DNA of 64,000 nucleotides from the NCBI RefSeq assembly GCF_001761485.1, contig NC_090775.1, forward strand, positions 2,363,001 through 2,427,000. The letters run 5' to 3'. Positions within the stretch are counted from its first letter, which is position 1; every line of letters starts with the position of its first letter. Made by a program: the position numbers and the translations under genes. The DNA comes from Yarrowia lipolytica. Its lineage: Eukaryota; Ascomycota; Dipodascomycetes; Dipodascales. Shown in pieces: positions 36,795 through 60,605 of this stretch. Under the pieces are notes generated by a model that was given only the letters and a program-made list of their open reading frames with translations, was not told where the DNA came from and did not search any database.

Positions 36795-36795
36795 A

Positions 36796-36924
36796 GATTA
36801 CAGCACCCCAGGATTCTCGTATGGTCTCCCCACTACAATTACTAAACTAGGCTCTCCTGGTGCTTGGACTATGGGCCTGATCGGACCGGGAAGCCGTATT
36901 TTCACCAGGATATGGGCCGTAACC
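36796..36924 (-). rRNA. 5S rRNA sequence fused downstream of tRNA-Gly (diverged, possibly a pseudogene)
   Basis: Read on the minus strand it starts GGTTACGGCC five bases after the tRNA-Gly and ends GGTGCTGTAATC before T-rich terminator sequence (36780-36795). GGTCCGATCA, AAGC, AGAGCCT, TAGTGGG and GACCATACG follow the order of fungal 5S rRNA, so identity is clear. At about 129 nt it is longer than the usual 119-121. The A-box-like segment reads AGTCCAAGC where yeast 5S has AGTTAAGC. Yarrowia is known to have tRNA-5S dicistronic genes transcribed from the tRNA promoter, which would free this copy from needing its own TFIIIA sites. It may be a variant gene or a decayed one. Confidence 0.75.
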
Positions 36925-36929
36925 AAAAC

Positions 36930-37000
36930 TGCGCCCGACCCGAATCGAACCGGGGGCCCATCGATGGCAACGATGGATTTTACCACTAAACCATCGGCGC
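36930..37000 (-). tRNA. tG(GCC): tRNA-Gly (GCC), first half of a tRNA-5S dicistron, with unusual stems
   Basis: Minus-strand sequence GCGCCGATGGTTTAGTGG begins a 71-nt tRNA close to yeast tRNA-Gly(GCC), with anticodon stem CATCG/CGATG, loop TTGCCAT and anticodon GCC. Box A (TGGTTTAGTGG) and box B (GGTTCGATTC) are intact, so Pol III should transcribe it. The T-arm reads CCCGG-TTCGATT-CGGGT and the acceptor GCGCCGA/CGGGCGC. Relative to a perfect cloverleaf, one C is missing after the T-loop and one extra G is in the 3' acceptor strand. This leaves about four non-pairs in a standard fold, or a 4-bp T-stem with an 8-nt loop plus a bulged acceptor. The unit may function mainly as a promoter for the attached 5S. 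Confidence 0.85.
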
Positions 37001-54311: not shown

Positions 54312-56192
54312 ATGTCTACCGACTGGAAAGACTTGCCCGTTGCGCCATGGCTGATCGACACCATGGAGCAGTTCGGATTCACCGATATGACCCCTGTCCA
54401 AGCTTCAGTCATCCCCATGTTTGCAGGAAACAAGGACGTGATTGTCGAGGCAGTCACTGGCTCAGGAAAGACCATTGCCTTCCTAGTTCCTCTGATCCAG
54501 CGAATGCTGAATCTGCTGAAGGAAGGACCGGCTGTTTCTGGCCGAGTCTACTCTGTGGTCGTCTCTCCTACCCGGGAACTTGCCCGACAGACATATGAAG
54601 TGCTGCAGTCCATTCTGGAGATGGGATGTCCTGAAGCCGATGCTAGCGACAAAATCACCCTGGAGAAGAAGAAGAAGGGAAAGGCCGCCCCCACCATGCC
54701 CAAGAAGATCCGAGGCCAGCTGATCATGGGTGGAGATCTTCCATCTCATATGGATCTGAAGAACTTCCTTAGAGACAAGCCTCAGATCATTGTTGCCACT
54801 CCTGGCCGATTGCTCGAGCTGCTGCGTGCTCCCCAAATCAAGACATCCGCATTTGACTCTCTGGTCCTGGACGAGGCCGACCGGCTTCTCGACCTCGGCT
54901 TTGGACGAGACATTACATCCATCATCAACATTCTCCCCAAACAGCGAAGAACAGGACTTTTCTCTGCTACAATCACAGACGCCATCCAGAACCTGGTCAA
55001 AATTGGTCTACGAAATCCCGTCAAGATTGTCGTCAAGGTTGGCGGTAAGAAGGAACAGAAGACCCCGCTTTCGCTGGGTCTCTCTTACGTTGTTCTGGAG
55101 CCTCGCGAGAAGCTGGCCTACGCTCTCAATTTGCTCAGTATCTACCCCTACAGAAAGGCCATTGTTTACTTGCCCACATGTGCAGCTGTGACATACTACC
55201 AGCAAATGTTTTCACATCTCAACGAGGGCAGGGAAGAACCCTATGAGATCTACGGTCTTCATGGAAAGCTGCCATCATCTACTCGAATCAAGATTCTCAA
55301 CAAGTACCAAAAGACTGGAGCGCAAGCCATCTTGATGACTACAGATATCGCTGCCAGAGGTCTTGATATTCCCGAGGTTGATCTTGTTGTCCAGCTTGAT
55401 CCTCCTTCTGATGCTGACACCTTCCAGCATCGATGTGGACGAGCCGGTCGAGCTGGAAGACAGGGCCAGGCTATTGTACTTTTGCATAAGGGACGAGAGG
55501 AGGAATACGTGGACCTCATGAGAGTCCGAAAGGTGAAGCTGCGACCATACACCGGACCTGGGTCGGAGCTGGAAGGAGAGAAACTGGATCAGGAGGCTAC
55601 GGAACTGTACACCAAGCTGAGAAAGTGGGTGCTCGAAGACAGACAACGCCATGACCAGGCTCTTCTTTCGTTTGTGTCCTTTGTCCGGTTCTACTCCAAG
55701 CATGTTGCCCAGTCCATTTTCCGAATCCAGTCACTGGATCTGCCTGGGCTGGCAGCCTCTTACGGCCTGTTGCGTCTGCCTAAGATGCCTGAGCTGCGAA
55801 CCAAGGACAACGAGAGACCTGAAAACACATGGCTGGGCGAGGTGATTGACTTCGACACATACTCGTACAAGAACCCCGCCAAGGAGGAGGCCCGACTCAA
55901 GGAGCTGGAGGCACACAAGGAAGCCATGAAGAACAAGGTCAAGATCCACAAGACCAAGAACGACGTCCAGAAGGCCAACCGAGCCTGGTCCTCCACGCTT
56001 CAGAAGAAGGAGGAGAAGTCTGAGCGTCACCAGAAGAAGCAGACACGTATCAACGAGAAAATCAAGCGGGACTTTGAGGAGGCCAAAGATCTCAAGCAGG
56101 AGGAGTCCAAGGAGGTTGTTAACGACTGGAAGGACATGGTCAAGAAGAGCAAGAAGCGCAAGGTCGATCTGCCTACCTTTGACGACCTGTAA
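54312..56192 (+). CDS. SPB4: DEAD-box ATP-dependent RNA helicase Spb4
   Basis: A 626-residue nucleolar helicase needed for 60S pre-ribosome maturation. Motifs in order are the Q-motif region FTDMTPVQASVIP (23-35), Walker A AVTGSGKT (47-54), PTREL (86-90), ATPGR (162-166), DEAD (187-190), SAT (218-220) and HRCGRAGRAGR near 375. The start WKDLPVAPWLIDTM and the C-terminal extension (FVSFVRFYSKH, then a Lys/Glu-rich basic coiled tail) are typical of Spb4/DDX55. An insertion of about 30 residues rich in Lys follows motif Ia (about 105-135). Length agrees with yeast Spb4 (606). Confidence 0.97.
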   Translation: MSTDWKDLPVAPWLIDTMEQFGFTDMTPVQASVIPMFAGNKDVIVEAVTGSGKTIAFLVPLIQRMLNLLKEGPAVSGRVYSVVVSPTRELARQTYEVLQSILEMGCPEADASDKITLEKKKKGKAAPTMPKKIRGQLIMGGDLPSHMDLKNFLRDKPQIIVATPGRLLELLRAPQIKTSAFDSLVLDEADRLLDLGFGRDITSIINILPKQRRTGLFSATITDAIQNLVKIGLRNPVKIVVKVGGKKEQKTPLSLGLSYVVLEPREKLAYALNLLSIYPYRKAIVYLPTCAAVTYYQQMFSHLNEGREEPYEIYGLHGKLPSSTRIKILNKYQKTGAQAILMTTDIAARGLDIPEVDLVVQLDPPSDADTFQHRCGRAGRAGRQGQAIVLLHKGREEEYVDLMRVRKVKLRPYTGPGSELEGEKLDQEATELYTKLRKWVLEDRQRHDQALLSFVSFVRFYSKHVAQSIFRIQSLDLPGLAASYGLLRLPKMPELRTKDNERPENTWLGEVIDFDTYSYKNPAKEEARLKELEAHKEAMKNKVKIHKTKNDVQKANRAWSSTLQKKEEKSERHQKKQTRINEKIKRDFEEAKDLKQEESKEVVNDWKDMVKKSKKRKVDLPTFDDL

Positions 56193-56721
56193 GGTATATA
56201 GACAATTATTTATGCTACGTTGTACCGTATGTACGGGTATATCCTGCCTGAAAGAACCGAGGCAAACCTTTTGATAATATCAAACTACAGCACAAGTACA
56301 CCACCAGAACGGGTAGAACATTCCGCAAGTACACTTGTACATCGTGATAGTCAAATGTGCAGCACTTCTGTACCATTCTAAAGTATCGAATACTTCACAG
56401 ATTCATCTACAATTACAGTAACACACTACGGGTCAAAAATTATGGGGATGGGACTGAATAGTCCAATCGTATTAGCCCCGGAGGTTCGGCGTTCCAGCCT
56501 ACGTCCTCCAAAATACTATGTAATCCGACAGGCAACGGCTCTTATAATCCCTCTGTGAGATTTCCACGGGTCTTGCTCCAAGGGTCATCGGCACTAACTT
56601 TTGCTCTGGCTCTTTCGGCGGCCTCGGTTGCGGTTCCATCTTCACCATGATCCAAAGGATCAGGTTGCACTGCGCGTATCCAACTTAATCCATCAACTTT
56701 CCGTCCGGTCCACTCCATACT
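56193..56721. other. SPB4 3' flank and gap before the palindrome array
   Basis: It holds the SPB4 terminator region and an isolated 58-codon ORF on the minus strand (listed separately). No other feature is seen. Confidence 0.4.
56542..56718 (-). CDS. Doubtful 58-codon ORF next to the palindrome array
   Basis: On the minus strand an ATG at 56718 opens a 58-aa ORF (MEWTGRKVDGLSWIRAV ... DPWSKTRGNLTEGL) ending at 56542. Composition is protein-like (Trp, Asp, Ala, Glu mixed; TATEAAERARAKVSADDPW), unlike the surrounding DNA. I recognise no family. Its start lies three bases from the first palindromic unit, so the array would be its upstream leader if this strand is transcribed. It may be a genuine small gene, a relic exon or chance. 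Confidence 0.25.
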   Translation of the reverse strand: MEWTGRKVDGLSWIRAVQPDPLDHGEDGTATEAAERARAKVSADDPWSKTRGNLTEGL

Positions 56722-57125
56722 TCGAGAACACGGGCTCGAGACGAGACACGAGCTCGTCAAAGTCAAGAACACGAGCTTGATATGAGATCACGGGCTCATA
56801 CTGTAGAAGGCGAGAACACGGGCTCGCGATGAGAACACGAGCTCATCTAGCGGACAAATTCGAGAACACGAGCTCGAAGTGAGAACACGAGCTCACTAGG
56901 GACGATGCGAGAACACGGGCTCGCCATGAGAACACGGGCTCATAGGAAAGAGTCGAGATCACGGGCTCGAATATGAGAACACGGGCTCATCACAGGAATC
57001 CAAAGTCGAGAACACGGGCTCGATATGAGAACACGGGCTCATACTGGAATTATTGCGAGACACGGGCTCTGAAGACGAGGCACGGGCTCAATCTTCTCTC
57101 ATGGTGCGTCGAGACACGAGCTCGA
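56722..57125. repeat. Array of 17 palindromic units with covarying arms, arranged as pairs
   Basis: Seventeen 17-20 bp units share an asymmetric core (A)ACACGGG or (A)ACACGAG (ATCACGGG in two) flanked by complementary arms: TCGAG/CTCGA (56722, 56953, 57006, 57109), ACGAG/CTCGT (56741), TCAAG/CTTGA (56763), TATGAG/CTCATA (56781, 57024), GCGAG/CTCGC (56810, 56907), GATGAG/CTCATC (56828), TTCGAG/CTCGAA (56859), GTGAG/CTCAC (56879), ATGAG/CTCAT (56926, 56973). Units near 57055 and 57074 are degenerate. From 56763 they alternate C-type (CGAG or CAAG) and T-type (TGAG), two abutting units per pair, with unrelated 9-15 bp spacers and a pair pitch of about 46-53 bp. Every frame through the array contains stops, so it is not a coding repeat. 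Confidence 0.92.
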
Positions 57126-57300
57126 GGCGGGGTCGGTCGGTGGCGCCTTGGCTCTGTAGCTCACGGGGCTGCAGGCTTTTATGGCTCTTTGCTGTATAGT
57201 CAATTGCGAAATCTTCTGCACTAGCGGCTGCTCAGCAGCTCTTTACCGTCTTGTTTCCGTAGTATTTCTGGGGCTGGGGTGATTGAACTGTGATATTTTT

Positions 57301-57346
57301 CCGTTTTCTTTTTCCGTTTTCTTTTCCGTTTTCTTTTTCCGTTTTC
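57301..57346. repeat. CCGTTTTCTTTTT tandem repeat, about four copies
   Basis: Twelve- to thirteen-base units of CCGTTTTCTTTT(T) repeat with small length changes. TCCGTA-based units follow to about 57393. It is simple sequence lying 175 bp right of the palindrome array. Confidence 0.85.
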
Positions 57347-58653
57347 CGTAGTATCCGTAATGGTTCCGTAATAATTCCGTAATGATGACGATCCGAATGA
57401 TGCCGAAGTATCCACATGATGATAATGTTCCGATGAATCACAACCGGCATGGGGCCGGAGGGAGAAGATATCGCTCCATCATGCGATGAAGAGTTTCTGA
57501 AGAAGGAAGAGAGAAGTGGTTGATGACGACCCCTTATATACCTTTGGAGAGCAGCAACTCATGCACGAGGTTGTGGGGAACTGGCGCAACTGAAGGCTTA
57601 TTGACGATAGAATTTGGGTCCCATATCACGTTGTGCTTTGACAAGTGGGCAGTGGTCCCATGACCCAGGCAGCAGCAGCAGGCGTAGCAAGCAATTACAG
57701 GCGGCAATCAAGGGGACTGGTGGATGGATATGTCGGCCGAAATGCCCAAAACCGTCGTCATTGGCACCCGATTTGCCCTCCATCACGCGCCATGAAAAGC
57801 TCTAAACTTGGGCTTAAATGGCTGGCTCGAGACCGAGATGATGGGGGACCAACATGTGACGTAACCCCAAACTAAGAAGCTAACCCGACGCATGGTTTGA
57901 GGGGTTGGGCGGCTATGACACGTTAGGCAGTATTGTAGCACATGGTGTGTTTATTGGTGAGAGATCGGCTGTTACAGGTGTAGTGGTCTGGATGGTTGTC
58001 TCGGCCAGCCATCTGATTATCCACTGATTATCCAGTCTCGTGCTTGATCGGTGGAGTTGCGCTTCAGGCTGATGTCGTAGCTACGAGTATGAGTATGAGT
58101 ATGACTCTGAAGTGACAGTTCTATAACCTACGCACGTACTTGTTGTTAGCAAGTACGAGCACAGTATGTATTGGTAAATACACCCGTTACTCGCTCGTAC
58201 TGAGTGTCTATTCTTAGACCGTCTCAGGTCTCGACATGACTCCACGGACTTGTGTCATAGTGCAGTGCAGACGTGCCGTGTGTCCGGAGAGGGACATTCT
58301 ATACACGATGAGAATGTACTCGTACTCGTACTCATACACACATGTACTGTAGTTCCCTGATGAGACAATAGCCTGTACAGTACTTGACAATGTCGTCACC
58401 TCCAATGCTCACAATCACCTCAAATAACCACTACACTGTCAATATCCCTCTTGCAACGTCGTGGACAGTGCTCAAATCTCTCCAACATAATAAGCGCGGA
58501 GAGTGTCGATTATGCACGCCCCTGTGAGTCAGTCTATCATCTGCCCTCATCGGGTGATTGAGGTACTTGTAGGTGGGCCTGGGATATCTCTTGAAAATGT
58601 GATTTGGTGGCGAGTCGAAAATCAGCTTGTGACACGATATCGAACCGTTGTCC

Positions 58654-58690
58654 CCATTCTCCATTCTCCATTCTCCATTCTCCATTCTCC
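58654..58690. repeat. (CCATTCT)5 heptanucleotide tandem repeat
   Basis: Five perfect CCATTCT units plus two further bases. Because 7 is not a multiple of 3, all frames stay open, which creates misleading ORFs (MENGEWRMENG on the minus strand). No gene is implied. Confidence 0.92.
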
Positions 58691-59819
58691 AATCAATCGC
58701 GACACTTCCGACCCCTTTGTTCTGCATCGTATCATTCCATGGTCGGTATTGGAAGGCTCGCTTCACACAACCGAATCTGTTGGGACCAAAGTGGAGGTCC
58801 GCACAAACAAGAGAAGACAAACAACTGACCAAGGCTACAGTACATACTGTACTTATTGTACGAGTAGGATCGGTTCCGCACCACACTAAAGAGCTGAAAA
58901 ACGAAATTACGTGCCGTACTCATACCGACATATAGACACTCGTATCAGGTATGCCATTAATAAAGTCTCACGAGCACGCCATACTTGTCTACTACTTGTA
59001 GCTCTTTCCAGCTCCAGCTCGTACAAAAAACCCCCCCTTCCCACAACCCTCCCCCCAATCCTCTTCGACCCCTATTGCGAGATTACTTGTACTTAATGGA
59101 GAGGCAATTTCGGCATTGTGCCGTGTTTGTTTGGCGGGCTTGTTAACATGTCTTGTCTTGTTTTGTTTATCAGGGTTGCAACAGAGACGGGCCCGGGCTC
59201 TCATTGGTCCAAACGGCGCATGTCATACCGGCTCCGTTAGTTGAAGATTGTTGACGCAACTCTAATGTGTCAAAACAAACCACCGCTCCGTCTGTCTACA
59301 GGCACTAATCACACCCCGTTAGTTTAGGGGTCGCTTCATGATCCTACCAGGCCCCACAAAACACGAGCCCTACGCGCAGTGGCTTTGGTGGAGCAGGGTA
59401 TAGCTTGAACAGTTCTACTGCTGGTGGGTGGTGCCGGTTGGGAGACGCGTTGATGGTTGGTGGGCCGTGAAAGATGCAGATAAACAGGTCTGTCGCGTGA
59501 CCCACGGTAGGGTCTTGTATAGACAGTGGGGCCCGAAAAAAAACCACATGGGCACACTCGCGAAATACCGCCTGCCCTCTTGGTTCAATGTACCGTATCA
59601 CCTGCCCTGGAAAGTGTTGGCCCAATCCCCCCCCTCCTCCCTCTCTCCCTTTCCAGCCTTCCCCATGCCCCCGAAACTTTAGTTTGAGCACGCATCCAAC
59701 TAACTTTGCTTCACATTCTTCAGCATTCTTTAGCCCGTCAACTAGTCAAACTGTATCCCCCCTGTTGTTGTTGACCCAACTCTTCCACCTACGCGTCACT
59801 GCTTCGTCAACTCCACACC

Positions 59820-60605
59820 ATGGCTAAATCAAAAATCTACTACACGCCCAGCGACATCACTAACACAAAAACCCTGCACGATAACGCCGCCACGGTGCAA
59901 TTCCTCACCTCGGAGCTCACCGAGAGCGCAAAGGTTGCCGCTCTTGTGGCCACTGAGAGCTGGCAGCGACTGGTCGAATGTGTCGCCCACACCCGGGGCC
60001 TCGACAACAAGGAAACCAAGGCGTTTGTCGAAAAGTGGAGCCCCGACAACGTGGACATCACTCTCAGCGAGGAATTGTCCAACGGCAAGCGGTTCCGAGA
60101 TGAGGTGGAGCTCACCCCCACCGGCCGTATCAAGAAGAAGCGTGTGGTGGACCCCAACATGCCCAAGAAGCCCATGACCGTCTTCCTGGCCTTCTCCACC
60201 AAAAAGCGGGCCGAGATTCGAGCCGCTCGACTGGCCCGAGGCGAGCCACCTCTCCAGAACTCGGAGATGGCCAACGAGGTGGCCGAACTCTGGGGAAAGC
60301 TGTCTGACGCTGAGAAGGAACCTTACCAGATTGAGTACCGGAAGAAGCTGATCGACTACCAGAGCCGAAAGAACAAGTACATTGAGAGTAAGGCTGTCAA
60401 CGTGGCGGCCGCTGCCCTGGCCGAGGAGGCCGAGGAAGAGGCCGAGGAAGAGGCCGTTGAGGAAGCCGTTGAGGAGGAAGAGGAGGAGGAGGAAGATGAG
60501 GAGGAGGAGGAGGAAGAGGAGCCCGAACCCATCAAGTCTCCCAAGAAGAACAAGAAGTCCAAGGACAAGAAGAACAGACGCTCCTCCAAGTCTAGCAAGG
60601 AGTAG
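59820..60605 (+). CDS. HMO1: HMO1-like HMG-box protein
   Basis: A 261-residue chromatin protein. One clear HMG box spans about 115-190 (MPKKPMTVFLAFSTKKRAEI, EVAELWGKLSDAEKEPYQIEYRKK), bending DNA with little sequence specificity. Residues 1-95 form a helical N-terminal domain that could be the diverged box A of Hmo1. Residues 201-236 are almost entirely Glu/Ala, and the last 25 residues are Lys/Ser-rich (KKNKKSKDKKNRRSSKSSKE), giving an acidic-then-basic tail. Yeast Hmo1 sits on rDNA and ribosomal-protein promoters and ends in a Lys tail, and this architecture agrees. NHP6 is excluded by size. An HMGB-like general factor remains possible, so the symbol is tentative. Confidence 0.85.
   Translation: MAKSKIYYTPSDITNTKTLHDNAATVQFLTSELTESAKVAALVATESWQRLVECVAHTRGLDNKETKAFVEKWSPDNVDITLSEELSNGKRFRDEVELTPTGRIKKKRVVDPNMPKKPMTVFLAFSTKKRAEIRAARLARGEPPLQNSEMANEVAELWGKLSDAEKEPYQIEYRKKLIDYQSRKNKYIESKAVNVAAAALAEEAEEEAEEEAVEEAVEEEEEEEEDEEEEEEEEPEPIKSPKKNKKSKDKKNRRSSKSSKE

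Follow-up and report, generated by a model that had tools for sequence, protein, structure and literature searches.

Paired short palindromes in non-coding DNA are familiar from the REP/BIME sequences of bacteria, which are dispersed in many prokaryotic copies. In mitochondria, repetitive hairpin-forming elements have been reported to include the double hairpin elements of Allomyces and of sponges (PMC2800124). In yeast, template switching has been reported to extend inverted repeats into longer, perfect palindromes, even from arms of 4 bp (PMC3820800), and it was proposed as a source of multibase compensatory changes and of hairpin maintenance (PMC8794818). For Y. lipolytica itself, the centromeres were described as GC-poor regions that may have palindromes of 17-21 bp (PMC7263194).

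The array described here lies in a 64-kb stretch of the Yarrowia lipolytica genome (the window; positions 2363001-2427000 of contig 6, plus strand), contig 6 having 4,002,965 bases and the genome comprising 20.5 Mb in six contigs. Counted from the first base of the window, the array occupies positions 56722..57125 of the plus strand (404 bp) and consists of 17 hairpin units, arranged as 8 double hairpins and 1 single unit. It is hosted by a 3.6-kb intergenic gap. Upstream is an SPB4-like DEAD-box helicase gene (54312-56192, plus strand), whose stop codon precedes the array by 530 bp, and downstream, 2.7 kb away, is an HMG-box gene (59820-60605, plus strand).

An initial annotation of this DNA had proposed 17 units at 56722-57125, all in one orientation, each with a fixed core flanked by arms of 5-6 bp; the listing of the units bore out their number, position and orientation. 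Each unit, 17-18 bp long, has two 5-bp arms around a loop, which measures 8 nt in 13 units and 7 nt in 4. The loop was AACACGGG in 7 units, AACACGAG in 4, ATCACGGG in 2, ACACGAG in 2, ACACGGG in 1 and GCACGGG in 1. The core is fixed in part: an exact AACACGGG or AACACGAG was present in only 11 of the 17 units (7 + 4), the other six being the two with ATCACGGG and the four with 7-nt loops, whereas CACGRG was found in 17 of 17. The core was taken as the 14 bases GAG-loop-CTC with CACGRG, and the centre of the unit is not symmetric. Perfectly complementary 5-bp arms were found in 15 of the 17 units. The exceptions are units 15 and 16, which make up a dimer close to the right end of the array; in them the inner 3 bp alone still pair. 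At offsets 6 to 12 the numbers of pairing units were 7, 4, 6, 6, 2, 3 and 3 of 17; since pairing drops past 5 bp, the stem was taken to be 5 bp. The sixth base, which pairs in 7 of 17 units where chance would give about 4 (an excess that is not clear), did not hold up as part of the arm. The perfect arms are of six distinct kinds (TCGAG five times, ATGAG five times, GCGAG twice, and ACGAG, TCAAG and GTGAG), fewer than the at least eight pairs originally counted, a number that would require the sixth base. The TCAAG/CTTGA double change was indeed present, in unit 3.

The better repeat unit of the array is the double hairpin, or dimer, rather than the single hairpin. Within dimers the two units are separated by 1 nt in six of the eight cases and by 2 and 3 nt in the remaining two; the gaps between dimers measure 5-17 nt. 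Likeness between units was 0.901 in the 14-base core and 0.518 at the outer four positions, and the gaps between dimers were alike at 0.438, which is near chance (0.420 ± 0.013 for shuffled gaps). Taken together, the tight gaps within dimers, the likeness of the cores and the near-chance likeness of the gaps between dimers show that the double hairpin is conserved and the filler is nearly free. In the array Tandem Repeats Finder (TRF) detected periods of 47 and 97, the former with 7.3 copies and 75% matches.

All dimers were read on the plus strand. Double hairpin 1 (units 1-2, 56722..56757) has TCGAG and ACGAG arms, and the loop of unit 2 is 7 nt long. Double hairpin 2 (units 3-4, 56763..56799) has TCAAG and ATGAG arms, unit 3 carrying the double change in its inner arm. 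GCGAG and ATGAG arms were found in double hairpins 3 (units 5-6, 56810..56846) and 5 (units 9-10, 56907..56943), and TCGAG and ATGAG arms in double hairpins 6 (units 11-12, 56953..56990, with a 2-nt inner gap) and 7 (units 13-14, 57006..57042). Double hairpin 4 (units 7-8, 56860..56896) combines TCGAG and GTGAG arms, and an alternative fold was predicted for it under every setting. The single unit 17 (57109..57125) has TCGAG arms and a 7-nt loop. Double hairpin 8 (units 15-16, 57055..57091) is degenerate: at 57061-57091 the broken arms coincide with 7-nt loops in both units and an inner gap of 3 nt, which indicates that stem, loop and gap decay jointly.

The central claim, that the arms differ between units yet stay complementary, was examined statistically. 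Pair cells were Watson-Crick in 81 of 85 cases (17 units x 5). When the right arms were permuted as blocks among all units, none of 200,000 trials attained this pairing (mean 63.1). With permutation confined to the odd or to the even units, which allows for an inherited two-unit periodicity, it was reached in 16 of 200,000 trials (mean 72.8), and 15 perfect units were reached in 0 of 200,000 (mean 7.1). Perfect inverted repeats with 5-bp arms and loops of 7-8 nt numbered 15 in the array, compared with a mean of 1.08 and a maximum of 6 when the rest of the 64 kb was divided into 620 overlapping stretches of 404 bp. Among the off-array one-mismatch matches to the core that were listed, both outer positions were paired in 2 of 16 (by chance, about 1); within the array this holds for 15 of 17 units. 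These permutations, the off-array control and the both-sided changes described below lend good support to the view that the arms were kept complementary rather than left to drift.

Changes were scored in the 13 units with 8-nt loops, a cell being called changed if it differed from the commonest pair. Of the 65 cells, 15 had changed on both sides and none on one side only, and none was unpaired. The count was limited to these 13 of the 17 units because a MAFFT alignment of all 17 misplaced gaps in the units with 7-nt loops; as the four omitted units include both broken ones, the 100% pairing is flattering, and the figure for all 17 units is the 81 of 85 given above. For the same 13 units the covariation score, calculated among repeat units and not among orthologues, was 0.559 as against 0.196 ± 0.049 after shuffling, and sliding the arms by 1-3 columns left 12-48% of the cells paired. 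Only three of the five pair positions vary in these units. Two other measures, the number of pairs altered on both sides (3) and the number of further pair types (4), were matched by 30 and 496 of 500 shuffles, respectively; being so common in shuffles, they add little or nothing.

Counted by hand, the independent double changes amount to about six, a small number: the differences between the two arm classes (two positions), the G-C arms of units 5 and 9, and the changes in units 8, 3 and 2. The G-C arms of units 5 and 9, which lie 97 bp apart, probably represent one event. In some double changes both sides have undergone transversion (T-A to A-T, T-A to G-C), and for these there is no route via a G-U intermediate. 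Among the four broken cells of units 15-16 there is one, C/A, that would become a G-U pair on the minus strand. When the window was scanned with a covariance model of the single unit, 9 matches fell in the array, 7 being full-strength and those to units 17 and 3 weak; 8 array units were unlisted, and 3 matches outside the array were at chance level.

Searches of the genome placed the element at one locus. A DNA search with the whole array matched only the array itself. When up to 2 mismatches were allowed, the 14-base core was matched 199 + 182 times, the copies in the array included, and its reversed pattern 166 + 168 times. The tandem GAG-N8-CTC pattern with any loop gave 20 matches, 10 in the array and 10 scattered (reversed pattern, 25), and the pattern of two neighbouring cores was found at 15 places, one of them in the array (reversed pattern, 26), an uninformative outcome. 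Judged by the core and whole-array DNA searches with this inner arm and loop length, the array is single in the genome, and a dispersed element was accordingly rejected. At the gathering threshold Rfam gave 3 matches in the window, none of them in the array; the search of 56190-58500 up to an E-value of 5 gave 3 weak matches, all at 57378-57552 and none in the array, so that a known RNA family was rejected as well. Neither the array nor Yarrowia non-coding or palindromic repeats like it were found in the freely accessible literature searched. For the array itself the suggestion of an undescribed element is therefore fair; as a kind, hairpin repeats are already known.

The 3.6-kb gap has a single box of the TATAWAW type, TATATAAG (57533..57540, minus strand), which, judged from its sequence, would direct putative minus-strand transcription through the array; we offer this as a lead only. 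The stretch at 57232-57545 (minus strand) is promoter-like for such a candidate transcript, with a pyrimidine-rich leader and short ORFs after the TATATAAG box; an ORF within it had no Pfam match. On the minus strand of the gap both GTGAGT and GTAAGT were absent in a scan for splice signals, and on the plus strand one GTGAGT was found, at 58524. A second, simpler repeat with TTTTCCGTTTTC-type and TCCGTAATGAT-type units occupies 57296-57386, with 170 bp between it and the right end of the array, and presents many minus-strand CGGAA motifs between the TATA box and the array. CCATTCT is repeated perfectly in tandem at 58654-58691 (7 bp, 5.4 copies). Elsewhere in the window, at 36795-37000 on the minus strand, a tRNA-Gly gene is directly followed by a 5S rRNA gene; tRNA-5S gene pairs are typical of Yarrowia.

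Folding was calculated with RNA and with DNA energies. As RNA, the plus strand of the array was more stable than 60 dinucleotide shuffles (z -3.78; minus strand, z -1.76), and the flanks were not more stable than their shuffles; the plus-strand value is compatible with an RNA role too. With DNA energies, five of the eight dimers on the plus strand and six on the minus strand had the double hairpin with both stems as their minimum-energy fold; with RNA energies two and one did, since CGGG and GCUC segments then cross-pair via G-U. Stem probabilities summed over 16 units were, for the plus and minus strands, 4.27 and 1.67 as RNA, 9.82 and 7.91 as RNA without G-U pairs, and 8.48 and 8.55 as DNA. 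Without G-U, RNA about equals DNA, and the contrast between the two thus comes largely from G-U cross-pairing. Over the whole array the corresponding sums, out of 17, were 6.00 and 4.38 as RNA and 7.10 and 7.83 as DNA. For dimers 4 and 8 no double-hairpin fold was obtained under any setting (RNA, RNA without G-U, DNA), and single units as DNA, with a 5-bp stem and an 8-nt loop, were weak (-1.5 to -3.6 kcal/mol). The strict Watson-Crick pairing and the predicted folds lean towards DNA rather than RNA pairing, weakly and not decisively, since the energies are small and six events are few.

The order of the arms had a limited effect on the predicted folding. The local pairing of the plus strand (6.0 of 17 units) was reached by 6 of 200 full re-orderings of the arms, and that of the minus strand (4.38) by 14 of 200. 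Re-ordering within the arm classes had no effect (37 of 200 on the plus strand, 112 of 200 on the minus strand), which means that the alternation of two arm classes alone explains the result. Arm order as a selected trait was rejected on this ground.

The explanation we prefer, possible rather than probable when taken as a whole, is a single non-coding array of tandem double hairpins with a protein-read core, in which arm changes arise by template switching and pairing takes place at the DNA level. In all but one dimer the outer two arm positions change only as complementary pairs. The core would be under selection because a putative protein recognizes it, probably in DNA whose single-stranded or strained state allows the short stem to form. 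Arm changes would enter as template-switch (quasi-palindrome) events, one arm being rewritten from the other; as such a switch alters both sides together, the stem would never be lost. Pairing at the level of DNA would be preferred over pairing in RNA. Our best guess is that the array is a putative cis-acting binding platform between the SPB4-like and HMG-box genes. A selected hairpin and an inverted-copy mechanism had been put forward as alternatives, and both may be true. The likeness of the cores (0.90) against that of the gaps (0.438) was counted for selection on the core, although the divergence of the gaps could have other causes, for example new filler at each duplication. The lack of one-sided cells among the 13 units, together with the transversion double changes and the template switching reported in yeast (PMC3820800), was counted for inverted copying, and the paired arm changes were probably supplied by template switching. 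A nuclear cis element that is read as folded DNA, with a conserved loop, paired stems of free sequence and template switching as a built-in repair, is a rather doubtful reading.

In the direct alternative, with selection alone at work, the hairpins would form in RNA, either a non-coding RNA or a long leader, with a protein binding the loops AACACGRG (CYCGUGUU on the other strand). RNA ligands are classically marked by a conserved loop on a covarying stem; the plus strand folds better than its shuffles, the alternating arms aid local folding, and a transcript of the minus strand, started from the gap's single TATA box, would run across the array. However, re-ordering within the classes was without effect, no G-U variant occurred in the 13 units (0 of 65 one-sided cells), the RNA folds chose other pairings in 6 of 8 dimers on the plus strand and 7 of 8 on the minus strand, Rfam has no family matching the array, and the strands disagree, folding favouring plus and the TATA box minus. 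We regard RNA hairpins as a serious but on balance unlikely candidate. The exclusively double-sided changes in the 13 units could also belong to a neutral satellite, grown by duplication, in which the arms are perfect solely through template switching and no function is served. The tandem organisation with periods of 47 and 97, the degenerate end dimer (units 15-16), the confinement to a single locus and a mechanism known from yeast (PMC3820800) agree with this, but template switching in the arms fails to explain why loops and inner arms are 0.90 alike while the gaps are near chance, and a satellite of this kind appears quite improbable to us.

Regulatory arrays are often located in long intergenic gaps, and such a gap is where the array resides; this, and CACGRG in one orientation in 17 of 17 units, would suit double-stranded binding sites of a dimeric regulator, where several related homodimers would use the complementary arms as half-sites. 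Relaxed outer positions would need no mutual match in such sites, yet 15 of 17 units match, and the centre of the unit is not symmetric; we consider this explanation very unlikely. The length of the units with 5-bp arms, 17-18 bp, is within the published 17-21 bp range of palindromes and could recall a centromere element of Y. lipolytica. But GC content is not low (0.54 in the array, 0.496 in the gap and 0.508 in the window), the 1-kb profile has no trough at the array, and the core has no second array among the six contigs, although every chromosome needs a centromere and others might use other sequences. With the GC profile and the literature speaking against it, the centromere was rejected as a highly improbable identity. 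Finally, some frames read repeated residues, as a protein-coding repeat would, but the array looks non-coding: there is no open frame across it, each of the six frames having 3-7 stops, the unit spacings are not multiples of three, and three ORFs tested gave 0 Pfam families at E <= 1. Stops in every frame refute a continuous coding frame, and the chance that the repeat is coding is next to negligible.

Within one 404-bp stretch the array combines about six paired changes with no one-sided change in the units with 8-nt loops. It is thus a compact natural record for two questions: do compensatory changes come about by a single template switch or one side at a time, and does selection act on DNA hairpins in a nuclear genome? 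A comparison between strains of Y. lipolytica would answer much about both.

With the REP/BIME sequences the array shares paired short palindromes in non-coding DNA, and it differs from them in being a single locus in a yeast. It resembles minisatellites in its tandem arrangement with periods of 47 and 97; it differs by the covarying arms of its units and by the freely varying gaps between dimers. The centromere palindromes of Y. lipolytica, as they have been described (PMC7263194), belong to the same length class as the units; unlike them, the array is not GC-poor and its core is found at one locus in six contigs. The template switches reported at quasi-palindromes (PMC3820800, PMC8794818) have in common with the array short inverted-repeat arms made complementary in one event, but they are a mutational process and not an element, and they leave the conservation of the core across units unexplained. 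The double hairpin elements of mitochondria (PMC2800124) also consist of two adjacent short hairpins repeated in intergenic DNA; those elements are reported as dispersed and possibly mobile, whereas the array is one tandem locus on a 4.0-Mb contig. The array is a real, odd feature, most like a tandem form of the double hairpin elements, in nuclear DNA.
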